This document shows positions 3,750 through 58,909 of a DNA stretch of 64,000 nucleotides, piece after piece (the first letter of the stretch is position 1; every line of letters starts with the position of its first letter). The position numbers and the translations under genes are program-made. The DNA comes from Toxorhynchites rutilus septentrionalis. Taxonomy: Eukaryota > Arthropoda > Insecta > Diptera > Culicidae. Under the pieces are notes generated by a model. The model saw nothing but the letters and a program-made list of their open reading frames with translations. It had not been told where the DNA came from and did no database searches. The DNA lies in assembly GCF_029784135.1 (NCBI RefSeq), contig NC_073746.1, positions 287,753,348-287,817,347 of the forward strand, read 5' to 3'.

Positions 3750-5041
3750 AAGGGTGTGTCACATCAAATTGCATCACGGAAAAAACGCTGTAGAAATTTA
3801 ATTTTTAGGAATTATATCTTCAGCTTTCGCTTATAATCAGATAAGAGTGTATAGATCACGTTGGCCATGCTTCACTGTCAATTTTTCGTAAATTTGGAAA
3901 AAGGGCGTCGAACGAAAAAGAGCGTCGTGAATTAATCCTGCGCACTCACTTCGAGAATCCGGAGTTGTCACATCGGGACATCGGTAAAATGCTGGGAATC
4001 GTCCAATGCACGGTCAGCAGAGTACTAAAACGATACTTCGAGAACCTAACCATCGACCGGAAGGTGAAGAACGGCAAAAATGGATGCTCCGTCAGTGAAA
4101 ATGATCACAAGCGCGTAGTTAAGCAGTTTAGACGTGATCCGAGAAGTTCGGTCCGGGATGTCGCCAATAAGCTGAATTTGTCAAGTTCATTCGTCCAGCG
4201 GACCAAGCAGCGGGAGGGACTGCGTACATGCAAGGTTCAGAAGGCTCCTAACCGCGACGAAAGGCAAAACATGGTGGGGAAGACGCGAGCCCGGAAGCTG
4301 TACACCGAAATTCTGACGAAGCCGCATTGCCTGGTAATGGACGATGAAACCTACGTCAAAGCGGACTTTCGTCAGGGCCTGTTGTTCTTCTCCGCAGAGG
4401 ACAAATTCAGCGTTCCGGAGGAGATTCGCAAACAGAAACTATCCAAGTTTGCCAAAAAGTACATGGTGTGGCAAGCGATCTGCTCTTGCGGAAAGCGGAG
4501 CGCCCCCTTCTTGATGACCGGCACGGTGAACGGGCAGGTTTACCTTAAGGAGTGCCTACAGAAGCGCTTACTACCACTATTCAAGCAGCACGAGGGCCCG
4601 ACCATCTTCTGGCCGGATCTCGCTTCGTGCCACTATTCAAAGGACGTGTTGGAGTGGTACGAAGCCAACGGGGTCACCTTCGTGCCAAAGGAAATGAACC
4701 CGCCCAACGCGCCGGAGCTTCGCCCAATAGAGAAATATTGGGCGATTATGAAGCAGGCCCTCCGGAAGAACCCAAAAGTTGTCAAATCGGAGGCGGACTT
4801 CAAGAGAAAATGGCTTTCTGTTAAAAAAAAACTACAACCTGACGTTGTACAGAACCTTATGGACGGGGTAAAGAGGAAGGTGCGAGCATACGGGCTTGGG
4901 CTCGAAGTATGAATAAAAAGAAAATGCTAAAAGTTGTTTAATAGTTTTTATTTTACTGTCTAAAATTTTCAAAAGGATCGGTCTACTGAGCGAATTTCTA
5001 CAGCGTTTTTTCCGTGATGCAATTTGATATGACACCCCCTT
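3750..5041 (+). mobile_element. Tc1/mariner DD37E transposon, full length
   Basis: The element is about 1292 bp, flanked by TA at 3748-3749 and 5042-5043, the target duplication of the Tc1/mariner superfamily. Its inverted repeats are about 48 bp and nearly perfect; both contain the phrase CATCACGGAAAAAACGCTG. It encodes one transposase on the plus strand. DD37E transposons (ITmD37E) were described from mosquitoes, which is the main taxonomic hint in this window. Ends and length look complete, but the transposase start codon appears mutated. Confidence 0.92.
3902..4912 (+). pseudogene. DD37E transposase, start codon apparently lost
   Basis: The frame is open from about 3842 to the stop at 4910-4912, roughly 336 codons from the presumed first codon, the usual size for this family. 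The two other DD37E transposases here begin MASK; this one reads RASN at the same place, with AGG at 3902-3904, so ATG>AGG is the simplest explanation. An N-terminal helix-turn-helix region (SHRDIGKMLG) precedes the catalytic core. The triad is D in VMDDET, D in WPDLASCHY and E in LRPIEKYW, with 37 residues between the last two, hence DD37E. No internal stop or frameshift is visible. A shorter product from an internal ATG such as 3989 would lose the first DNA-binding helix. Confidence 0.85.
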
Positions 5042-12952: not shown

Positions 12953-13175
12953 GACGTAGAACTACGTCTTTCATTAAGGGTGCCAAATCAGAAAACAGGT
13001 CACGTTTTTATGAAATAAAGTTAACGTTTATAACTATTTTTGTCGTGAACGGATTTTGGCGATTTACATACTAAACGAATCGGAAATTCCGTAAAATTTG
13101 TTTAATATATTATACATTAGAATCCCCTCATTTGTAAATGGTTAAAATACATGAATACTTTAGCGTTTCCATTTT
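12953..13175 (+). repeat. Dispersed repeat copy with GACGTAGAACTACGTC end
   Basis: It begins with the near-palindrome GACGTAGAACTACGTC (12953-12968), followed by 'tttcattaagggtgcc', 'aaataaagttaacg' and 'tttgtaaatggt'. It is colinear with the inverted copy at 665-795. The palindromic end resembles an element terminus, but the far end is not defined. Confidence 0.6.
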
Positions 13176-13209
13176 CCCATACATTTGTTCTGTCTATTTG
13201 TGTGCTTTC

Positions 13210-13532
13210 CAGGGGTTAGACATCAATTGAATATAGGCTACCCAAAATCAAAATCAATATGGCGTCATTTGTTTACTAACATATCATTTACGAGGATTGA
13301 AATCATTGAAATCACGTATGCTTTATTTTTAACTGCATGAGCGATTTTCATATTTCGGTTTCACATGGAGGTGTTCTAATTTAACATGGAATTTAAAGTT
13401 AGCCACTATTCGACTATATAACCGGACCGAGTTGTAAACAATAGTAATTGATAGAACCAAAATGTCAGTAAACCGCAGCAATATTGGGTACACTGGCAAT
13501 ACGAGGGATCTGACGTTTTAGTCATACCCCTG
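13210..13532 (+). mobile_element. Intact MITE, about 323 bp
   Basis: It starts CAGGGGTTAGAC and ends GTCATACCCCTG, giving inverted repeats of about a dozen bases. It is the uninterrupted counterpart of the element at 3512-5155 (inverted there). Position 13318-13330 ('tatgctttatttt') corresponds to the place where the DD37E transposon landed in the other copy. It is non-coding. A target duplication is not obvious. Confidence 0.8.
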
Positions 13533-13659
13533 GTGTTTCCCGAACAGATCTGTCAATAACGAGCAACTTATCGACGACCAACGGAGGGGAAATCGTAGGA
13601 TTCAATGTCTCCGTGAACAAAGGAAAAGTAGAAGAATGAAGGGGAATACTTGCCTAGAG

Positions 13660-13723
13660 TATAAACAGTGGATCTCGCTGAGGCAAACTTCATTCGGCAT
13701 CGGACTGTTGAGCAATCCAGTTC
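13660..13723 (+). promoter_or_regulatory. Core promoter: TATA, initiator and DPE at canonical spacing
   Basis: TATAAA at 13660-13665 is followed by the arthropod initiator TCATTC at 13690-13695 (consensus TCAKTY), placing +1 at A13692, 32 bp after the start of the TATA box. At exactly +28 to +32 (13719-13723) lies AGTTC, matching the DPE consensus RGWYV. Three elements at correct spacing are unlikely by chance, although no transcript can be seen. Sequence downstream is GC-richer than average, as expected for a first exon. Confidence 0.6.
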
Positions 13724-13993
13724 ACTTTGCTTTCGCTACGTTTCGATCTAAGATTGGACCCCACCAGTGGTAATCCAACTAGGATATCGTCGTTTGGTTT
13801 TTCTGTTCGTTTTTCGCGCGTTATTCGTATCGTGTGTTTTTCTTTCCGCGTCATAAATTGGACGCTTCACGTAGTGTGTGATGAGCAAGATGAAGAGGAA
13901 GGCAGGTCGAGCCCTGCGAAAAACGAACGCATTGCCAGGGGCAATAAAATTTCGAGGCAAGCGTCATTTAATAATGCACGCGATGCTGGTGCA
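13692..13993 (+). other. Candidate first exon of an unidentified gene
   Basis: This is the transcript segment predicted from the core promoter to the splice donor GTGAGT at 13994-13999. It is richer in C and G than the flanks. One ATG at 13881 opens a basic 37-residue frame (MSKMKRKAGRALRK...) running to the donor, and to a stop at 13995-13997 if unspliced. It could be a short 5' coding start or an upstream frame in a leader. Gene identity is unknown; the remaining exons would lie downstream. Confidence 0.35.
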
Positions 13994-15171
13994 GTGAGTG
14001 CCTTCGCGAGTGTGACACCGCATCGAACAACAGCGAAGTAGGCGATTTCGGCGCGTCGGTCGAAAATGTAAACGCCGTTACCCAGGCAGCAACCAAAATC
14101 AAGCTCCCCCCGCTCTTGACAATCACATCAGCGAATTCGCATCGATGGGTGTTACAGCAGAGTACAAGCTGTGTGGCAGAATTCAGGCTTTTTCCAAGCA
14201 GTTAACATTGTTTGTTTTCCGTCACCATAAGGGCTTCGTTGGTGCCTTTGGTGCACCAAAAAAATATTTGGGGAATACCAAGCATCTTGAATGTCTTACT
14301 GGAATGTTATAAGTTATTTGGGTTCGCGTGCCAGTCGCAAAACTGCTTTCAACTAGGATTGCATTTGCGCTAATATTGATCATAATGAAGCATTGCTACT
14401 GTTTTCGAGGTTGTTATTAACAAAAAGAATTTATTTCGCTTGTTTAGTCACCAAGAAAGTAAATGTCGTTCTGGAATTTTGTATGTGATTAGGTTTCGCT
14501 TGCCAGTAACAAAACTTCCTCCACTTAGGGTGACAGCTGCGCTTCTCTCGAGCATGAGAAAGTAATGCCACTTTTTTTCGAGGCCACTAATATAAACAGG
14601 AGCGTTTCTTTTGAGAATAGCGCAAAATGATGAGAAGTGTTTATATTCCTAGTAGTTTCAAGCCACCAATGTATGGCTATGAATGCATGCTATGGCGAAT
14701 GCTTGTTTGGCGCTTGGTTTACGTTGTACGAACGATGCCTAGAGGTGCGATTCCTTTGAAGCAATGCTAAATAACATGTAGCATGATATTTGATACTTGC
14801 AAGTATTGTCATTATTGTTGTTTCCATGTGGTGCCAAAGATATATTGATGTAGTTATGTGATGTGGAATAATGGTGCTGGTGCAACATGTATATAATCGA
14901 CTGTAGCCGAGTCTATGTCAATTGCGAAAAAGGCCACCGGAATAGCGTTCGAGGTAAATTTTCAATGCATTGACATGAAATAAATTGCGACATACGATCA
15001 GCTAGTGTATTGTTTTGCGAGGACAAGAATGAATCATCAATCAATTATCCTCAACTGATTCTACAACGAAAAAACCACTTCAGAGATTATTCTACTAAGC
15101 AGTTGTTTCTAAAATTTCACAGCATTATAAAATAATATCCCAAGGTACGAGCGACTTTTATAAAAAAACAG

Positions 15172-15235
15172 CGTAGTTCTACGTCAACAATGCGGTCGTA
15201 TCTTGGACACAACCTCCTATAATTTTTTCATATTT
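15172..15235 (+). repeat. Partial copy of the histone-cassette 3' end repeat
   Basis: It reads 'gttctacgtcaacaatgcgg' then 'tcgtatcttggacacaacct', colinear with 20343-20395 and with the inverse of 34640-34700. Only this short terminal part is present, with no histone sequence. It shows that the end motif is dispersed independently of the histone cargo. Confidence 0.6.
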
Positions 15236-15930: not shown

Positions 15931-17440
15931 TACCTGTCATAGATAAGAAACCTCCGGTTTGCCGGTAAAAGCTGTTCTAGCACTCTTCCGATGCCCAGAG
16001 AGTAAATATAGGGAACGACTCTCTGCAAGTGCATTGTACAGTCTCTTCCAGTCCCAGCAAACGAATAAGAACTCGAGAGATAAACATGTTCTCGCACTTT
16101 CGATTCGACCAGTAGTTTCCAGCGTCGCCGCGCCGGCGGATGAAAACTTTTCCCTCGTCTCAAGTCTCTTTTCTAGCGGTTGGTCGGCAAAGTGCGTGAC
16201 AGTTTTCAAATTCAAGCGTGGGTTCTGAATGTTGTTTTGTTGTTTATAATATGGCTTTTTTTCGGTTGCTTCTGTTTATGTTATTAATTCTCGCGCTAGA
16301 GTTCCACTAATGTGTTTCTTTTTCGTGGGATTCATTCGTTGTTCGCGTTTGTTTGCCACTACCTAATTAGTCACAAGTGTTTTGAAATATCGCCTGAGAA
16401 GTGTTGTTTTACATTTGGCGAATCACGCGTGGACGGTTTTGATGACACACGGAAATTGTGTAAACAAAACAACTTCGGCCGCACGAGTGCTATATCGGGC
16501 GCGAATGATCGTGTCAAGTGGCTTCGGCGCGAGGGCTGCCAGAACTACTGACTTGTGTCCACGTGCGTTGAATTCGTAGAGAGTGATAATGTAAGTGCGT
16601 ACTCAGAAGCCTTCCACCTCCTCCGTAACCATGGGTATTTAATTCAAGAAATCATAATTATTTAGTAATAACCGGGACATCCATCAAATATCGCTGGTAA
16701 CCCTGCTATGCCATATATTTCGATTCTATCCACGTAAAGTGTGTGTGGGCTCAAACCGGTCGCCAAGAGCGTGAAATTGATTGTGTTGTCGCTGTTTGAA
16801 CAGTAAGTTCAGTAAGTTCAAGTGTTCCCGCAGGGTTTTCGCTGGTGCCAGTTTGGCTATCGTGGAAAAATACCGTGGTGAAGTAGACGCGTTAATGGAT
16901 CCGCAATACGCTACAGTGGGATAGCAGGTTTTAGAAATGATGAATCAGTTGTGACTCGTTGCCGAACGATCCATCATCTGAAATTGCCGTCGCAAACTTT
17001 CAGGCAATCAAACGATAGTGAGTTATTACTCGCTTAAGTGGAACAACAAGATGACTCGAAAGGGGACTCTAATGATTATTATCCGATGATGCAGCGGTGT
17101 GGACTACACTGTACACTGTACACTGTTACGTGTAATAATAACAATTGAAAGTTGGAACGAGACAGATTACTATTCGGTACAATGGCTTTTACTCTACTAT
17201 TATGATGCCAAAGAACTTACCTGAACAATATATATATATATAAAATTCTCGTGTCACGATGTTCGTGGTCGAACTCCTCCGAAACGGTTCGACCGATTTT
17301 CATGAAGTGATTTCGATGCACTGAAAACTTGGTAGGCATGAGAATAGGACATAAACTATATATGATACCGCTACCGATTATCATATGTTTTATACCGATT
17401 AGGGTGGTCCTATGCAAAAAAAATCTAAATAATTTTAATT

Positions 17441-17715
17441 TTGACGTAGGATTTGACGTCTTTCGGGAACATATTGGGGTACAAATTGAAAAACGAATAT
17501 CGATCGCATCGTGAAAAATGTCCAATTTCAAACGCTTATTGCTCAGTCATTTCATGACGGATTGATGAGATTTTTACATCAAAACATTGCGGCACTCTAT
17601 AACAATTTTTCACCTTGAATAAAATAATATATATCATGTAATTAACTATCGAACAATTGAAAAATCTCAACCCCTATCCAAACGATACTGATTGGTCGAA
17701 ATTGACGTCATTTCT
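17441..17715 (+). repeat. Histone-cassette upstream block, copy 1
   Basis: It starts GACGTAGGATTTGACGTC and contains 'ggggtacaaattgaaaa', 'cgcttattgctcagtcattt' and an inverted CCAAT motif in 'ctgattggtcgaaattga'. It is closely related to 19141-19390 and to the inverted copy ending near 35860. In this copy it leads directly into a histone-type promoter. Confidence 0.8.
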
Positions 17716-17751
17716 CTTTCGCCTGCTTCGCTTCTTTCGTTCCCCGATAAG

Positions 17752-17842
17752 TCAAATATTTGCATGGTGAGCGAGTGAGGGCGCCTATTTCTCACATACC
17801 AACTGATATAAAAGGACGGTAGCATTTTTGGATTTCTCATTC
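17752..17842 (+). promoter_or_regulatory. Histone-type core promoter with octamer, TATA and initiator
   Basis: ATTTGCAT (17758-17765), the octamer motif known from histone H2B promoters of other animals, lies about 45 bp before TATAAAA (17807-17813). An arthropod initiator TCATTC sits at 17837-17842 with +1 at A17839, exactly 32 bp after the TATA start. The CCAAT-type motif of the upstream block is a further 115 bp away. The whole layout fits an RNA polymerase II histone promoter. It still looks functional in sequence although the following gene is degraded. Confidence 0.6.
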
Positions 17843-17904
17843 TCGTTCAACGCTCAGATCGGCAAACATCTGGGCTTCTAGTGTGCAGTGCTCTACAAAT
17901 CAAC

Positions 17905-18280
17905 CAACACCATACGGTGCGGCAAAGGAGAGGAAGCCATCGGCAACCAACGATGGATGCGGTGTAGCAAAGGGAGCAAAGAAGAGGAAGCAGCGGAGAG
18001 CATCGAATTAAATCTAGTGTGCATTGCTGGTGCGCTCCTCTTCACATAAACAATTGGTTGCGACAAAGGAGGCAGAGGAGCGAAGTGCATTGCATCGCAT
18101 CGTATCACACCCGCCTATCCGTCGTTTAGCTCGTCGTGGTAGTGCCAATCAAACCCTCGCAAATCGACGCACAGAAGCCGATGGCGCCAAAGTCAAGGAA
18201 AGAATCGGCGAATCCGTAAAAGCTACCGCTCCCAAAACTAAACTGCTATATCCGACTGAAACGCAGCAGATTCCGTACAA
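17905..18280 (+). pseudogene. Scrambled histone H4/H3 pseudogene
   Basis: Segment 18101-18146 reads PPIRRLARRGSA, matching the histone H4 stretch PAIRRLARRGGV at both protein and DNA level. Just upstream, 18033-18090 reads HKQLVATKEAEERSAL, matching histone H3 RKQLATKAARKSAP. Earlier sequence (17917-17990) has Lys-rich pieces like the GRGKGG start of H4. Histones are never arranged H4-H3-H4 in one frame, so this is a rearranged relic rather than a working gene. A frame stays open from 18024 to 18377 but its C-terminal half is unrecognised. It lies directly downstream of a histone-type promoter. Confidence 0.7.
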
Positions 18281-18379
18281 CCCATTAAACCATTCCAGTC
18301 CTTCTCAGGACTATCAATTTGTTTTGAAACAAAAGAGTTTATTTTACTGTTTTCCACTTACCACAAAAACTATATAAAA

Positions 18380-19135
18380 CCGATCAAAAATACTGTTTAT
18401 TTTTACATTTTCTACTAACAACTAACATGGAACGTATCACGTCAAAAACATACGTTTTATCAACCACCTTTTACTGGATCTGGCAAAAGAAGCGAAGGAC
18501 ATATGCATGCATGTATATAACGGAACGCTCCAGTCATACAGAGCCCGTTAGGGACGAATGACCTTTAGGTTAAAGTCCCTTCAAAATCAAGAACGAACGA
18601 TACACAGCCCGTATCAGACAAATGCATGAAGGAATTCTATAAAATAATATTTTCGCGGTGCCTTTGCGCCAACTACACGGGCGAGTAGCACCATACTAGC
18701 AAAAAATGTCGAAGTTCGTGACATCTGGTAGCAATATTTTTCTTCTTTTGAATTATAGAGACTTTAAACTTTACGTTCATTCGTCTCTAGCCCTGAGAAG
18801 CGCTCTTGCGAAGAAAACTAGTTCATACTCTTTTTCGACCTATCTTTAGAAAGACATTTTCATTGTCGCTCAGCACTCCTCAGCAAACGAGTCTGCTTTC
18901 GGCGGCACCAAGCGACGCCATGAGCAATATTTATTTAGGGAGGCAGATTAATCTTCCATCGAACTAGCAGGCCCGAAGGCAGTTTTAAATTGACAAAATT
19001 TAAATGTATTTATTTTTTTTATTTTAATTTTTGATTGTTCAAAACAATTACATAAATTTTTATATATATTGTCTGATGTTTCTACCAAAACACATCATTC
19101 AAACACATTTTTTTTCATGCGCAATTTTCATATAA
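18380..19135. other. Spacer between histone cassettes
   Basis: AT-rich spacer. It includes a small inverted motif (CTTTAGGTTAAAG, 18571-18583) and no recognised coding sequence. Confidence 0.35.
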
Positions 19136-19140
19136 GATTT

Positions 19141-19390
19141 GTTGACGTTGGATTACGTCTTTCGGGAACATATTGGGGTACAAATTGAAAATCGAAAATC
19201 GATTACATCTTGAAAATTGTACAATTTCAAACGCTTATTGCTCAGTCATTTCATGGTGGATTGATGACATTTTTGCGTCAATCGATTTCGGTACTCCATA
19301 ACCATTTTTTTATATTGAAGAAAATAATCTCATCCCCTATCCTAACGGAAATACCCACTTCTGATTGGTCGAAATTGATGACACATGCGG
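19141..19390 (+). repeat. Histone-cassette upstream block, copy 2
   Basis: This is a second copy of the block at 17441, sharing 'tttcgggaacatattggggt', 'cgcttattgctcagtcattt' and the inverted CCAAT motif 'ctgattggtcgaaattgatg'. It precedes the H2B-derived cassette. Presence before two different histone remnants suggests an ancestral histone upstream region. Confidence 0.8.
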
Positions 19391-19393
19391 CGA

Positions 19394-19560
19394 GTCCCTA
19401 ACAGAGACATCAAAACCAAGCTGCCTGGGGAAAATCGGTATTGCAAATCCATAAAGTAGGGTGAGCTTTTGTTTCTATCGAAATGTGTTCCCTAACAGAG
19501 ACATCAAAACCAAGGTGCTCGGGGAAATCGGTATTGCAAATATATGCAAGTCAGAGGTTG
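19394..19560 (+). repeat. Internal direct repeat of the H2B cassette
   Basis: Two related units begin TCCCTAACAGAGACATCAAA (19396 and 19489) and continue to 'tcggtattgcaaat'. The inverted copy near 35520-35660 has related units. The function is unknown. Confidence 0.7.
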
Positions 19561-20084
19561 CTCCATGAAATTTCATATCAATGACCGATCGTTTATTGTG
19601 AAAAATTTAGCACAAGTGTAAGTGTAAAATTGTATATGGTAGCAGTTGTGCTAAGAATGACTTGATATATGAAACGATTTATTTTATTTTCCTAAAATTA
19701 AAAACCAAGGTGTGTTCCCACTCGAGAACGGGTCGTTTAGTTTAAGCTGTCTGTTTTTTTGTGTTCATTTTCACCCGAGGGAAGTTTATACGGCGAGAAA
19801 AATTGGAAAAGTAAAGAAATATTCGAAAAAGTGATTTCCCATATCCTCTATATATATAGTATTAGTTGTTGTTAATCCAATTAAAATTGAATTGGGTTGA
19901 ATAAACACTCAGAAAGTAAAAATTATAAAAAAAAGAATACCTTTTCCATTTCAAATATGTTTTCTCTATATTAAAGTAACATGTTTTTACTGATGAGGAA
20001 AAATTATAATTGTGTTCGGTATTGGTAATTGTCTTATGTTACATTGGTGAGTTTTTTTCTTTATTTCATGCATACATATCACAG

Positions 20085-20224
20085 GAGGCATCTCGTCTAG
20101 GATCACAGAGGGCGGTTTTCATCATATATCGTTCCACATCGGTATCTTTTATCTGATACGCACCATTCAACGACTGTTTACCATCCTTCTGCCATCATCA
20201 CTCGATAAACACTGGTGGAGTTAA
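20085..20224 (+). pseudogene. Histone H2B C-terminal pseudogene fragment
   Basis: The codons at 20085-20099 read EASRL, exactly as in H2B (…AAEASRLAHYNK). Further on, 20165-20221 reads IQRLFTILLPSSLDKHWWS, which aligns with H2B IQTAVRLLLPGELAKHAVS, keeping IQ, LLP, L, KH and S. A stop follows at 20222-20224. An insertion of about 26 nt breaks the frame between the two blocks. A perfect histone stem-loop lies 28 nt after the stop, the normal position. A second copy lies inverted at 34.8-34.95 kb. It is clearly not functional. Confidence 0.65.
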
Positions 20225-20252
20225 CATACAATACGCAACAACCAAACAAAAC

Positions 20253-20268
20253 GGCCCTTTTCAGGGCC
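20253..20268 (+). terminator. Histone mRNA 3' stem-loop
   Basis: GGCCCTTTTCAGGGCC forms a perfect 6-bp stem with a four-base TTTC loop. It matches the metazoan replication-dependent histone 3' processing signal bound by SLBP. ACCA follows directly, as is usual at the cleavage site. Its preservation contrasts with the decayed H2B sequence upstream. Confidence 0.85.
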
Positions 20269-20341
20269 ACCATATCATTATCAAAGAGTTTAACGATGTA
20301 ATTCTTTAAACATATCCAAAATCAACAGATAGTCTAACGGA

Positions 20342-20400
20342 ATCCTACGTCAACTATGCGGTCGTGTCTCGGACACAACCCTCCTGTGACTTTTTTTTAT
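20342..20400 (+). repeat. Terminal repeat of histone cassette
   Basis: The motif 'aatcctacgtcaactatgcg' then 'gtgtctcggacacaaccctc' marks the 3' limit of homology between this cassette and the inverted copy at 34.6 kb. A partial third copy lies at 15172. It contains a short palindrome TGTCTCGGACA. Confidence 0.75.
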
Positions 20401-20964
20401 AAATTTGGCATAAAAGTACATATAACCTCAAAGGTTTACCTCCATTTCCTATTTTTAATCACGATTTTAGTATTTTGGTATAAATAATATCCAAATAATC
20501 GACCCGTAGATTATTTTTCAAAGAGAACGAATGTCATCCGACCTTGAAACGCAATGCGTATAGACGTCATTGAGCTTCGTGTTCCATTTCTGTGAAGCGT
20601 AAATTGTTATGAATTTTCGAGTGAAATAAACACGCTTTTAAAACAAAAATTTTAAATGAACTATGGTTCTATTGTGTGTTCTGTGTAACAGAATAACACA
20701 TTCTTTACAGGTAGGGAAAATATCGGATGAAAATAGTCTCTGATTTTATATTCTGGATAATATTTTGGCTGAAATGCAATGAGATTTCTAGAAAAATAGT
20801 GGAGTTAGGGTCAAGTCTATGTCTACTAAGTATTCAAACAACATCGAAAACACATTTTCATTTAAATTTCAACAATTTGAATTGCTTTCGGGTCTGCTAA
20901 CGACGAAATATGGGTGATTGTTCGATATTGTTACCACAAATATAGCCTTTTTTTATAGCCTTAC

Positions 20965-21216
20965 ATGGCAGATGGAAACTGTACAATGCATTTTCTTAAA
21001 GATTTCATCAACGACACGGCCGCAAGCCTAGGTGGATGTCCAATATATCAACGAATAAAAACTGATAATGATGGACAATCATTCATAAAATTTAACAACG
21101 CAGACATTGACATGGAAAACCGTTCAGTAGTGCCATATTCGCCTCAGCTGAGCAAAACATTCGATGAAGAGCAACAAATTAGCAACAACGAATTTTTTTT
21201 TTCAATTTACATTTAA
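20965..21216 (+). pseudogene. Helitron Rep/helicase-like protein fragment
   Basis: The 83-codon frame contains C..GNCTMHFLKDF, then CPIYQRI, then NRSVVPYSPQLSKTF. This order resembles the conserved Helitron region C..gkC.k.FPK.F, GYPvYRR, NrwVVPYnP.L in the segment before the helicase domain. The sequence then breaks down at an A/T tract and a stop. Upstream and downstream parts of the roughly 1400-residue protein are absent. Linkage to a CTAG terminus 280 bp downstream supports the assignment. Confidence 0.65.
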
Positions 21217-21384
21217 CGTTCAAGAGAACAAATATGTCAGATTCGTGAATGAAATACATCGGGAATGGAATACAAGGAATGTTTTGTGTGTTTTTTAAAT
21301 TTTTGTCATCGACTTGGCGCTCTATACCTCGGTATGTCAAACAAAAGTATGAAAGAAAGAGTAACGAACGTGTCAAGTATGTGT

Positions 21385-21498
21385 GATCTTTAAAACATTT
21401 AAACACACTTACAATACATTAATTATTTTTTATTTTACAATCAACATATTCACTAGAAATAATTTTTATGGCAGGACAACGTTTTCCCGGTCAGCTAG
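21385..21498 (+). mobile_element. Helitron-type 3' terminus, group I
   Basis: It shares 'acatttaaacacacttacaa', 'atattcactagaaataattt' and the GGTCAGCTAG end with the tail at 44780-45562. A GGCAGGAC...GTTTTCCC hairpin-like segment precedes the end. The next base is T, as expected for Helitron insertion between A and T. The empty site for the MITE at 44801 is preserved here (AATA at 21414-21417 region). Confidence 0.6.
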
Positions 21499-22053
21499 TA
21501 TACAATATATTATATTACGGATCATTAAGCTGAGCTCAGAAAGCATTACCTCCTTTTATTTGTTCTTGTAATTCGTGGCACTAATTGTGACATACAAACA
21601 TTCAAGTATACATAATAAGGTGGCAATGGATGATGGAAAGCAATTTCATCATCGAATTTAAAGAACCGACCATGTAGGGTAACACGGGGTGAGTTGGATA
21701 TTTGGACCACCCCTTTATCTCAGTGTGACTCAACTTGGATTTTTCATAATGTCATTTTCTTTTATTATTGAACCGTATGTAACTAACGTAAAAAAAACTT
21801 CGGTAAAATTCGACAGGTGGAAGGAAACGGTAGCATGAACACAACAAGCACTTTGATTGTCAAAAAATGTGAGTTTTCCGATCGTGGTTTAAAGTTTTTC
21901 CCGCTGATTAAACAAACATTTCGTGTATTGTGCAGTAAAGTTCTGAATTGTGCAGTAAAGTATTTTTGCATGTTGTGTGGGGTGACATGGACACGTTTCT
22001 GTGGGTGAATTGGTCCTACAGGTTTGAGGCTTTTTTTATATAGTTGATTCCAG

Positions 22054-22441: not shown

Positions 22442-22689
22442 CAAAAACCATTTCTTTTATTTTATAATATACTTGGTGGTTTGAAGCTTGATATAATGAT
22501 TGAACATTATTGATTGAGAGAAAACAAGTGTAGCTCCGTATACAATATGTCATTTTTGATTTAGACAAAAACCATTTCTTTTATTTTATAATATACTTGG
22601 TGGTTTGAAGCTTGATATAATGATTGAACATTATTGATTGAGAGAAAACAAGTGTAGCTCCGTATACAATATGTCATTTTTGATTTAGA
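22442..22689 (+). repeat. Perfect tandem duplication, two 124-bp units
   Basis: Units 22442-22565 and 22566-22689 appear identical over their full length. Both start CAAAAACCATTTC and end GATTTAGA. Identity implies a very recent duplication, or an assembly artefact. Confidence 0.9.
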
Positions 22690-34640: not shown

Positions 34641-34649
34641 GATAAAAGT

Positions 34650-35862
34650 CACAGGAGGGTTGTGTCCGAGACACGACCGCTTAGTTGACGTAGGATTCCG
34701 TTAGGCTATCTGTTGATTTTGGATATGTTTGAAGAATTACATCGTTAAACTCTTTGATAACGATTTGGTGGCCCTGTAAAGAACTGTTTTGTTTGGGTTT
34801 TCGGTATTGTTTGTTCACTCCACCAATGTTTACCGAGTGATGATGGTAGAGGGATGGTAAACAGTCGTTGGATGGTGCGTATCAGATAAAAGATGCCGAA
34901 GTGGAACGAGATATGATGAAAACCGGCCTCTGTGATCCTAGATGAGATGCCTCCTGTGTAATGTATGAATACAGAAAAAAAACCCACCAATGTAATACAA
35001 GATAATTACCAATAGTGTTTGGTATTATCAATTTTTCTCATCATGTTACATGTTACTTTAATAAAAGGAAAACATATTTGAAATGGAAAAGCTAATTTTC
35101 TTTTATAATTTTTACTTTCTGAGTGTTTATTCAACCCAATGCGAATTTCAGTTGGACTAACAACACCTAATACTATATATAGAGCATATAGGGAATCACT
35201 TTTTCTAATACTTCTTCACTTTTCCAATTTTTCTCGCTGTATAAACTTTCCTAGGGTGTTCCCGAGCGGGAACACACCTTGGTTTTTATTTGTGAAAATT
35301 GAAATAAATCGTTTTTATATATCAAGTCATTTTTAACACAACTGTTACCATTTAATTTTACAATTACACTTGTGCTAAATCTTTTACAATACACGATCGG
35401 TCATTGATATGAAATTTCAAGAAGCAACCAACATTAAAGTTCCAAATCTAAATTTTATTTGCTAGAATTAATCACGTATCACTCACTTTACTTGCAATAG
35501 AAAAATGCCCCCGACTTGCATATATTTGCAATGTCGATATTTTCCCCAGGCAGCTTGGACATCAAGTCTCTGTTAGGGAACATATTTCGGTGGGAGCAAA
35601 AGGTCCCCCTTCTTTCATGTATTTGCAATGCCGATTTCACCTAGGCAGCTCTGTTAGGGAGCCGCCGCATGTGTCGTCAACTTCGACCAATCAGAAGAGG
35701 GTATTTCCGTTAGGATAGGGGTTGGATCATCAATCCATCATGAAATGACTGAGCAATAAGCGTTTGAAATTGGACAATTTTCACGATGTGCTCGATTTTC
35801 GATTTTCAATTTGTACCCCCATATGTTCCTGAAAGACGTAATCCTACGTCAAAAATAAAAAA
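34650..35862 (-). mobile_element. Inverted copy of the histone H2B cassette
   Basis: Read on the minus strand this matches 19141-20400 along its length: upstream block with CCAAT motif (35862-35690), TCCCTAACAGAG direct repeats, 'tgaataaacactcagaaagt', H2B-derived frame and end motif. The H2B-like part keeps SSR, IQRLF, LPSSL and KHWWS. The stem-loop at 34770-34785 has lost pairing in one arm (GTTCTTTACAGGGCC). A palindrome GTGTTCCCGAGCGGGAACAC lies at 35257-35276. Two copies 14 kb apart in opposite orientation point to a mobile unit or an inverted segmental duplication. Confidence 0.75.
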
Positions 35863-44779: not shown

Positions 44780-45562
44780 CATTTAAACACACTTACAATA
44801 CTCGCGTAATTTTTGAAAAGGTCCTATGTAACATTCACATCAACTCGAGAAAAACGAAGTTGAAGATCGGAACATTGTTCCGCGAATTGTTTCAAAAGGA
44901 ATCGATCTTTATCACTACTTTTACCACTAGCAGTCAATAATAACTCCGCGAAACCAATCGTATCTGTTGTTATGTGATTTTAGTTTGATATTGAAACCTC
45001 CGAGCGAAAAATGTTACATTGGACGTTTTGACTGACCGCTTCGTACATTGGACAAATTACGTTGTACGATGACTATTTGCAAATAACTACTGAACAACGC
45101 TTCAAATACTTGCTTTTCGTGCTAAAAGCAGATCATTATTGTTATAACTCGTTGAATTGCACTAAAAACGATATCAACACCCGAAAATAACAAAAACTCA
45201 AAATGTCCGAAGTGCGACTTCGTGTTGTTTTGATTGCTTTGTTACTTCGGACGTATCGAGCGTCAGAGGAAAGAGGCGTCCGAAATAATAGTCGAGTGCT
45301 TAAAATTCGAATCTGTACATTGGACATTTTTTGTATCGGTAATAAAAAGGTGAAAAGGATAGATACTTGAACGGTTGTTTTCGCATTGCATTCAATGATT
45401 GAGCACTAATAGTATGCATCCATTAACTCGATTTGTTTACATTTGTTACTTGGGACCTTTTCAAAAGTTACGCGAGAATACATGAATTATTTTTTATTGA
45501 ACAGCCAAAATATTCACTAGAAATAATTTATATGGCAGGAAAAGGTTTACCGGGTCAGCTAG
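44780..45562 (+). mobile_element. Helitron-type 3' terminus (group I) split by a MITE
   Basis: 44780-44800 ('acatttaaacacacttacaa') and 45477-45562 (to GGGTCAGCTAG, then T) match the uninterrupted tail at 21385-21498. The DNA between is a MITE inserted later. A GGCAGGAAAAGGTTTACC hairpin-like segment lies just before the end. Confidence 0.6.
44801..45476. mobile_element. MITE with 4-bp AATA duplication and verified empty site
   Basis: Direct AATA repeats at 44797-44800 and 45477-45480 flank inverted repeats starting CTCGCGTAA and continuing TTTTGAAAAGGTCC for about 32 bp with three mismatches. The related Helitron tail at 21.4 kb has a single 'cttacaatacatt' at this position, which confirms the insertion and duplication. 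The 676 bp are non-coding. Superfamily is uncertain. Confidence 0.9.
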
Positions 45563-57599: not shown

Positions 57600-58895
57600 A
57601 AACTATGAAAAACAATTAGAGGAAATCAGGGTAAAACCGACACCCTAAGGATTTCCACATATTCCCAAGATCTACCATGTGTCTTCGACTTGTAATCATT
57701 ACAGAACCTCTCTTCAACTGATTATGAACCATTTTTTTTATCTGTTGATTATTTTTTAAAAAAGAGCTCGAATTTTGATAGAAAACAAAATCGATGTTTC
57801 CAGGTAAAATAAATGGGAGTGCGGGTGAGATCGATACCCTGTCGGGTAAAACCGACACTGCCATACAAATGAAACACAAATTTCAAAATTTCTCAAGAAT
57901 TAATCAAGCAAAAGAAACGAAATTTTGCGTGTATAGGTTTTAGGGTGCAATAAATAATTCTGTGGTGGTTAGAAACCCCTCCCGCCTCCCTTAGGGGAGG
58001 CTGCCATACAAATGAAACACAAATTTCAAAATTTCTCAAGAATTAATCAAGCAAAAGAAACAAAATTTTGCGTGTATAGGTTTTAGGGTGCAATAAATAA
58101 TTCTGTGGTGGTTAGATACCCCTCCCGCCTCCCTTAGGGGAGGCTGCCATACAAATGAAACTCAAATTTTTGCATTACTTGCGAATTAATCAAGCAAATG
58201 AAACCAAATTAAGCATATGGAGGTTTAAGAATGCAGTAAATGATTCTATGGTGGTTGGACACTCCACCCCCTCCCCCACTAAGAAGGGGCTGCATACAAA
58301 TGAAACACAAATTTCTGCATTACTCGAGAACTAATCAAGCAAATAAAACCAAATTTGGCATGTGGATGTTTTAGGGTGGTTTACGTTTTTACGGGGCCGC
58401 TCTAAGAGGGGGCTGCGATACAAATGAAACACAAATTTTTGCATTACTCGAGAATTAATCGAATAAATGAAATGAAATTGGGCATGTGAGGTTTTAGGGT
58501 GCAATAAATGAATCTATGGTGGTTAGATTCTACACCCCCCTCTCTTAAGGTGAAGGTGGGGGGGCTGGTTCTACCATACCAATGAAACACAAATTTCTGC
58601 ATTACTCGTGAATTAATCAAGCAAATAATCCCAAATTTGGCATGTAACGTAACTGAGGACCATGTTATTTGCAAGTGGTTGAAAAATCTTGAACGAGAAT
58701 TGTGTCTGAAAATAATATAATATTATAATGACGAGTTTTGGTAGAAGTACTAGGAATTTTATGGTAAAAAGGTAATTAAAGATCAATCAATGAGCAGTTC
58801 AGCGATTGGACCCATGAACGTGCGCTTAGTAAGAAAACGTGGATGCGATAACGAAAAATTAATTTTGGGCAGGACAAAGTTTGCCGGGTCAGCTA
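57600..58895 (+). mobile_element. Helitron-type element with tandem array and CTAG end
   Basis: It ends TTTGCCGGGTCAGCTAG followed by T (58896). GGCA...TGCC just before the end can form a hairpin. The tail 58665-58895 is shared with 1075-1250. Upstream is the tandem array 57861-58660. The left limit is uncertain; 57600-57860 contains three 'gtaaaaccgacac' type phrases that may belong to it. No Rep or helicase coding sequence is visible, so it would be non-autonomous. Confidence 0.5.
57861..58660 (+). repeat. Tandem array of ~143-bp units
   Basis: Units start near 57861, 58004, 58147, 58293, 58416 and 58572 with 'ccatacaaatgaaacacaaa'. The first two are 143 bp and almost identical; later ones vary between 120 and 160 bp. 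Each includes 'tcaagcaaa', 'ggttttagggtgcaataaat' and a C-rich/G-rich inverted pair such as CCTCCCTTAGGGGAGG. Confidence 0.92.
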
Positions 58896-58909
58896 GTATA
58901 TATATAAAA

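Follow-up and report, generated by a model that had tools for sequence, protein, structure and literature searches.

Helentrons and their non-autonomous relatives, the HINEs, are characterized by palindromic subterminal inverted repeats of 12–15 bp near the 5' end and approximately 38–60 bp from the 3' end, a short palindrome close to the 3' end, and insertion at TT, bordered by T-runs (PMC4067079). Capture of histone fragments by a Helentron has been published for Culex. The element concerned, Helentron-Cq-32A of Culex quinquefasciatus, has eight copies and is described as a Rep-encoding Helentron with H4-superfamily (smart00428) and H15 fragments, stop codons and frame shifts (PMC4067079). 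A literature search, with most subscription papers outside its reach, turned up no report of a Helitron or Helentron capturing histone sequence other than that in Culex. We take smart00428 to be the H3 model. Helraiser has been shown to bypass its 3' hairpin and to transduce flanking sequence (PMC4778049).

Here we analyzed a window of 64,000 nucleotides, meaning the whole stretch of DNA under study, from the 902 Mb genome of Toxorhynchites rutilus septentrionalis. It contains a histone-bearing composite HINE for which boundaries, ends, dispersed copies, empty sites and the identity of the main cargo were established. Compared with Helentron-Cq-32A, the Toxorhynchites element is non-autonomous, carries an H4 promoter and 5'UTR, the 5' part of H4, the 3' end of H1 and two stem-loops, and has at least 40 copies. 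It resembles DINE-1/HINE elements (PMC4067079) in its lack of coding capacity, its subterminal inverted repeats (subTIRs), the palindrome near its 3' end, TT/T-run insertion and central repeats, but differs in being composite, with a second 5' end inside it, and in carrying histone cargo. With canonical Helitrons such as Helraiser it shares rolling-circle logic and, as proposed here, read-through capture past a 3' hairpin (PMC4778049; PDB 7lcc). Caenorhabditis Helitrons with heat-shock elements are likewise rolling-circle elements that spread regulatory sequence (PMC6927752), whereas the regulatory sequence in the Toxorhynchites element is a histone promoter with 3' processing signals.

Structure and ends of the element

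The features of the locus are as follows.

17225..17438, + strand: 5' portion of the older canonical Helitron that served as insertion target; continuous with 20397 onward in L060, L061 and L062
17439..20396, + strand: composite HINE with histone cargo, a non-autonomous element of Helentron type, 2,958 bp; full-length copies, common ends, empty sites; ends precise to within the bordering T-runs
17443..17460, + strand: 5' palindromic subterminal repeat GACGTAGGATTTGACGTC, read from the sequence
17762..17909, + strand: captured H4 promoter and 5'UTR (TATAAAA at 17807-17813), matching sequence upstream of array-2 H4 as far as the A of its ATG
17910..18155, + strand: scrambled 5' part of the H4 coding sequence, most recognizable over codons 30-46 (18102-18152)
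18144..18413, + strand: 3' end of H1 coding sequence and 3'UTR, best match array-2 H1c (72%, E 7e-42)
18292..18338, + strand: first histone stem-loop, H1 type, core 18297-18313 (RF00032 18.9 bits, E 0.15, below the Rfam gathering score of 34)
19138..19328, + strand: internal second HINE 5' end (subTIR 19144-19159), 86% identical to 17441-17628
19395..19558, + strand: HINE central repeats, found likewise in the HINE upstream of H1c (L013) and in L011 and L022
20216..20327, + strand: captured replication-dependent histone 3'UTR, possibly of H4 (68% to the array-2 H4 3' end, E 1.7e-9)
20248..20293, + strand: second histone stem-loop, perfect, core 20253-20268 (RF00032 35.5 bits, E 1.3e-6)
20336..20396, + strand: HINE 3' end with subTIR 20336-20351, hairpin 20360-20380 and T-run, from sequence and copies
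20397..21498, + strand: 3' part of the same Helitron, with CTAG end and Rep-like ORF 20965-21216 (24 scored copies, 90-94%, starting at about 20390)
34644..35860, - strand: older HINE with a damaged stem-loop; it has the ends of 19138-20396 and is 79-93% identical to that stretch, depending on the piece

Assignment to the HINEs relies on the palindromic subterminal repeats, the 3' hairpin and the T-run insertion. The 5' repeat is 16–18 bp long, takes the form GACGTAGGATTACGTC in most fetched copies, and recurs in inverse form at 20336-20351, roughly 45 bp short of 20396. The outer 5' end was present in 13 of 14 fetched copies with up to three errors allowed, and the internal second 5' end was detected in 12. 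The 3' palindrome, GTGTC-TCG-GACAC within 20360-20380, was recovered with at most three mismatches in 11 of the 14, and CTCCTGTGACTTTT continues after the hairpin in 10 of these; L051 leaves the common 3' end right after the hairpin. T-runs border the copies, and three empty sites have a T-rich target tract. Canonical Helitrons, the kind to which the flanking older element belongs, have a 3' CTRR end and insert between A and T; the histone unit has neither feature and ends CTGTGACTTTT within T-runs in Helentron fashion. We consider it very probable that the carrier of the histone segments is a composite HINE, presumably mobilized in trans and with a cargo likely taken from histone array 2.

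Histone-derived segments

Several parts of the initial annotation stand. The histone-type promoter that it proposed is represented by 17824-17909, which matches positions -85 to +1 of the array-2 H4 gene (69% identity, E 1.9e-7), and the extended alignment covers 17762-18155, TATA box included, with a score of 113, against a best of 54.5 in 100 shuffles. The H4-matching segment gave z values of 9.4-12.6 against four H4 genes, and IRRLARRG is encoded at 18102-18152 (tblastn). The perfect 3' stem-loop is likewise real and is the second of two. It is present in 11 of the 14 fetched copies, nine times exactly, and was not found in L048, L050 and L055. The surrounding 3'UTR possibly derives from H4, judging by its match; the array-1 H3 3' end matches 20216-20327 at the same E value over a shorter stretch.

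The multi-histone cargo proposed initially is supported as to H4 but not as to H3 and H2B, and the proposal had missed the H1 end and its stem-loop. Within the window, four stretches tested for H3 reached a best score of 34, equal to the shuffle maximum, and blastn of 17000-21700 against the histone loci compared matched no H3 coding part. The supposed H2B C-terminal segment gave a tblastn E of 1.2 and a score of 30, under its shuffle maximum of 37. In contrast, 18144-18413 scored 257 against array-2 H1c, versus 91.5 for array-1 H1a and a shuffle maximum of 63.5. The 17-base core of the first stem-loop is identical in two array-1 H1 genes (L009, L010), and this stem-loop is altered in 5 of the 14 fetched copies.

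As coding sequence, the H4 and H1 pieces are dead passengers. In most fetched copies the H4 promoter and the stem-loops are intact, and they could yield a short histone-like non-coding RNA.

Dispersed copies and age

Other genomic copies with the histone interior were found in number. At least 39 long copies lie outside the window, and 30 of these begin with the 17439-type 5' end. This places the element at 40 or more sites; copy numbers are given as lower bounds. In query coordinates, 30 of the 39 scored places outside the window start at 203-217 (window 17427-17441), eight at 604-605 and one at 809, and a separate 5' piece lies nearby for six of the eight and for the one at 809. Copies with the same 5' end occur on C1, C2 and C3 at 92-99% identity, and four (L046, L047, L049, L053) are full-length in a single alignment (97.4-98.5%). 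Ends are the same and flanks, compared by eye, are different. The neighbour of the copy in L046 and in L059 is another HINE, and the HINEs of L059 stand head-to-tail with a common T-run.

With alignments below 90% identity excluded (for L054, those below 91% and shorter than 400 letters), 11 of the 14 fetched copies deviate from their majority by 0.37-1.19%, the window by 0.64%; L055 (2.23%), L059 (2.48%) and L054 (5.49%) are older. The HINE with histone cargo has amplified recently.

Insertion into an older Helitron and alternative explanations

The initial annotation had treated 17225-21498 as one Helitron-type element with a captured, rearranged histone locus. A rolling-circle-type carrier with promoter and processing signal is indeed present; it is a HINE and not a canonical Helitron, and the repeated unit is 17439-20396. 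That the entire interval is a single canonical Helitron would fit the presence on one strand of 5' sequence resembling a Helitron at 17225 and a CTAG end at 21498, with a weak Rep-like ORF between, yet only the window crosses 20396 among 40 scored matches, the others being 15 HINE copies ending at about 20396 and 24 Helitron copies starting at about 20390. No scored match outside the window extends 5' of query 195 (window 17419), and three Helitron copies (L060, L061, L062) lack the histone unit altogether, which refutes this reading and leaves it a negligible probability. Both families do occur together at C1:192731394-192733229, although in a different arrangement, an older HINE (82%) being split by a piece of Helitron near window position 20027; at C3:318640530-318642022 pieces of the two lie near each other in opposite orientation. 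The CTAG|T terminus at 21495-21498, correctly recognized, and the Rep-like fragment are parts of the older Helitron that received the HINE; for the CTAG end, this is an outcome that the initial annotation had itself named as refuting its reading. Of the 24 scored Helitron copies, most end at query 2100-2123, near 21498. At the 5' end of this Helitron, the copy in the window starts in an AT repeat without TC, where L061 and L062 have TC and then TATA. The Rep/helicase resemblance of the 83-aa ORF at 20965-21216 is weak, the sole PDB match up to E 10 being the Helitron transposase Helraiser (7lcc, E 0.71); it had no Pfam family and no homologue in one protein search. Among five window ORFs, Pfam matched only 3965-4912 (DDE_3 and helix-turn-helix families). 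Further CTAG|T-type ends lie at 1233-1250, 45545-45562 and 58879-58896. The presence of several decayed histone pieces on a single strand, in a genome with at least three kinds of histone gene group, could also indicate the remains of a histone cluster, or else a histone pseudogene of the ordinary processed or duplicated sort, with the repeats as later insertions. This is refuted by the dispersed copies on C1, C2 and C3, and a processed pseudogene would not include promoter and 3' flank; we regard it as extremely improbable.

A further proposal accepts the composite HINE and holds that its histone control elements are kept because they are useful, H4 promoter and stem-loop giving S-phase, non-polyadenylated RNA that favours mobilization at replication. 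TATAAAA is unchanged in all 13 of the 14 fetched copies where the motif was located, the second stem-loop is exact in 9 of 11, and separate HINEs have histone stem-loops with H3 (21 of 23). Excluding L054, promoter and 5'UTR show 11 deviations in 1,993 letters versus 136 in 10,012 for 18414-19140, a contrast that is no fair test of selection on control signals because the copies share ancestry. However, the HINE 5' stretch is just as low (17 in 3,510), the first stem-loop is altered in five copies, and captured H3 decays neutrally. Such retention seems unlikely.

Source of the histone segments and proposed origin

Array 2 is most likely the source of the histone pieces. Among the array genes compared, its genes are the best match for both the H4 and H1 parts, and a related HINE 5' end with repeats lies upstream of H1c in L013, the one array-2 stretch containing H1c that was examined. 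In the stretches of array 1 examined, H4 and H1 point towards each other, and in array 2 the two genes were not seen within a single stretch, so the H4-sense, H1-sense order needs rearrangement. A related HINE family bears H3 at 23 of 26 stray loci fetched, accompanied by histone stem-loops in 21, and array-2 H3 outscores array-1 H3 in all 23. This H3 was taken up intact as a protein-identical gene and has since decayed neutrally, changing about equally at the three codon positions.

We propose that a first HINE, with a 5' end but lacking its own 3' terminator, bears the rearranged host H4 and H1 pieces and continues into a second, head-to-tail HINE whose subTIR, hairpin and T-run terminate the whole unit. 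Capture would have taken place in array 2 by read-through past the missing terminator, together with rearrangement. Mobilization was presumably in trans, by Helentron Rep/helicase/endonuclease through rolling-circle transposition, and the cargo may be transcribed. Recent spread has reached at least 40 sites, in the window a T-rich tract of the older canonical Helitron.

Implications

New beyond the Culex case are the capture of a promoter and of 3' processing signals, the recent amplification of the element, and the presence of a HINE inside the probable donor array. A broader suggestion, which we hold only tentatively and think improbable as a whole, is that mosquito Helentron-type elements repeatedly colonize histone arrays and leave with control parts, the present family spreading a replication-dependent cassette of H4 promoter and non-polyadenylated stem-loop 3' end, the S-phase RNA of which might help a replication-dependent rolling-circle element or draw on host stem-loop-binding machinery. 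Histone capture by a Helentron in Culex is not an isolated case: in Toxorhynchites at least two HINE lineages have acquired histone sequence, and one of these has multiplied recently, its promoter and 3' processing signals remaining largely intact. Because young copies have clear ends and a HINE lies in the likely donor array, read-through capture can be traced step by step. The H3 copies in HINEs serve as a neutral clock. Histone stem-loops and promoters scattered through the genome distort counts of histone genes and could give rise to transcripts with stem-loop ends.

Boundaries of the two elements

The histone sequence in the window lies in a composite HINE, a non-autonomous Helentron-type element (17439-20396), which has inserted into an older canonical Helitron. 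When the genome was searched with 19400-21550, the 40 scored of 10,573 candidates comprised the window itself, 15 HINE copies ending near 20396 (94-99%) and 24 copies starting near 20390 (90-94%), most of which end near 21498. The join between HINE and Helitron is crossed solely by the window among these 40 matches. Both families occur in another arrangement at C1:192731394-192733229, where a Helitron piece splits an older HINE (82%), the nesting being the reverse of that in the window, and pieces of both lie near each other in opposite orientation at C3:318640530-318642022.

Three Helitron copies were read upstream, and in all three the match to 17225-17438 is directly continuous, across a T-rich tract, with the match from 20397 onward. 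This indicates that the canonical Helitron, with its CTAG end and Rep-like ORF, predates the HINE and is only its landing place. The initial annotation of a single Helitron with histone cargo at 17225-21498 is therefore not upheld, these three copies lacking the histone unit; the CTAG end, which it had allowed might come from an unrelated element, belongs to the canonical Helitron and not to the histone-bearing HINE. Additional canonical Helitron 3' ends (GTCAGCTAG) are located in the window at 1233-1250, 45545-45562 and 58879-58896.

Structure of the HINE

A minus-strand repeat in the window, from 35860 to 34644, matches 19142-20394, and both ends are common to the two. One side carries a GACGTAGGATTACGTC-type palindromic repeat; the opposite side carries the inverse of this repeat, then GGTCGTGTCTCGGACACAACC and then a T-run. 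Helentrons and HINEs are described as inserting at TT and as bearing palindromic subTIRs together with a palindrome near the 3' end (PMC4067079), and the ends of these two repeats share this anatomy of subTIRs, 3' palindrome and T-run. The histone-bearing HINE has two 5' ends (17439 and 19138), with a single 3' end found.

A further HINE-like pair of ends is present at 12953-15215 (palindromic subTIR 12953-12968, 3' hairpin end 15193-15215), a stretch giving no histone protein match at E 0.1. The window also contains an ORF with a DDE_3 transposase domain (3965-4912) and a perfect 124-base tandem duplication (22442-22689).

Histone cargo

The histone-type promoter noted initially is an H4 promoter: 17824-17909 aligns with the H4 gene of array 2, one of the host histone gene groups, from -85 to the A of the ATG, and a longer alignment with that gene covers 17762-18155. 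The H4 segment is likewise present as a scrambled 5' part following the promoter, clearest at 18102-18152. Around 18144 H4 sequence gives way to H1 sequence: the 3' end of the gene, then its 3'UTR as far as 18413, at 72-73% identity. Segments assigned to H3 and H2B did not score above shuffles in the stretches tested. The perfect histone 3' stem-loop was found at 20248-20293, and a first stem-loop had been overlooked.

Histone 3' features of the HINE
18292-18338, plus strand, first histone stem-loop
20216-20327, plus strand, histone 3'UTR, array-2 H4 being the longest match

The first stem-loop scores 18.9 bits (E 0.15), under the Rfam gathering score, and shares an identical 17-base core with two array-1 H1 genes, in L009 and L010. 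For 20216-20327, array-1 H3 gives an E-value equal to that of array-2 H4, over a shorter stretch.

Dispersed copies and age

The window occupies G000:C3:287753348-287817347 of the 902,557,243-base assembly. An H1 protein from the arrays has 100% identity to a histone H1-like protein of the mosquito Toxorhynchites rutilus septentrionalis. Searching this genome with 17225-19400 (40 scored of 8,489 first-look candidates; 65 matches) revealed many other copies, the initial annotation having proposed such a search. Thirty of the 39 non-window scored places share the 5' end, beginning at query 203-217 (window 17427-17441); eight begin at 604-605 and one at 809, and a separate 5' piece is close by in six of those eight and in the one at 809.

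Among 14 fetched copies, the outer 5' end is present in 13 and the internal second 5' end in 12. The first stem-loop is exact in 9/14; the second was found in 11/14 and is exact in nine. The 3' hairpin end was found in 11/14, ten of which have common sequence up to the T-run. By eye, flanks are unlike one another except in L046 and L059, each neighbouring another HINE. Divergence from the majority is 0.37-1.19% in 11 copies, and 2.23%, 2.48% and 5.49% in L055, L059 and L054, respectively. The family has been recently active, and its control signals may be intact merely through the youth of the copies.

Probable origin and likely donor array

In L059 two HINEs lie head to tail with one T-run in common. 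On the simplest reading, the first HINE would have lost its terminator and transposition would have carried on until it reached the next HINE's 3' end. Helraiser experiments showed comparable read-through, the 3' hairpin being bypassed and flanking DNA transduced (PMC4778049).

The H4 part has an alignment score of 113 with array 2, versus 78-80.5 for the other arrays tried. The H1 part scores 257 with array 2, versus 91.5 and 50.5 with array 1, the latter from a 100-base piece only; this comparison covers arrays 1 and 2, the array-3 stretch having been fetched without H1. These scores make array 2 the likely donor of the histone pieces. Array 2 (L013, about 9754-8900) carries a related HINE 5' end and central repeats upstream of its H1 gene, H1c, in the stretch read, and a short HINE separates H1 from H4 in array 1 (L010, about 4130-4355). 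H4 and H1 are convergent in the array-1 stretches and never together in one stretch among those read from array 2; capture would thus have to have been accompanied by rearrangement of the H4 and H1 pieces.

A second HINE family carrying H3

From 150 scored matches (7,890 first-look candidates), 26 loci judged to lie outside the arrays, a subset of the stray matches, were fetched (L019-L044). In 23 of them (L019-L039, L043 and L044) the H3 piece is accompanied by common repeat sequence beyond the histone part, the exceptions being L040, L041 and L042. These 23 form an H3-carrying HINE family separate from that of the window. A stem-loop variant, GGCCCTTTTCAGGGACA, occurs in 21/23 with at most three mismatches. 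The 3' terminal motif is within the fetched stretch in 13/23, downstream of H3 in 12 and on its other side in L035.

Array-2 H3 outscores array-1 H3 at all 23 loci. The majority H3 encodes the host protein at every readable codon (10 are unreadable) and differs from array-2 H3 at 21 sites, 20 of them third codon positions, and private changes are even over codon positions (180/2,672, 151/2,671 and 171/2,695). Together, the host-protein coding and the even changes indicate that H3 was a working gene at capture and has since decayed neutrally. A stray intact H3-like ORF of 136 aa, with several changes relative to array H3, is located at 4423-4833 of another fetched stretch, L017.

Relation to known capture

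Capture of histone fragments by a Helentron has been published for Culex (PMC4067079). The Toxorhynchites HINE is a further instance of such capture, from a different mosquito genus. Relative to the Culex case, the Toxorhynchites unit additionally has a promoter and two 3' processing signals, a higher copy number and a young age, and a HINE is present in the likely donor array.
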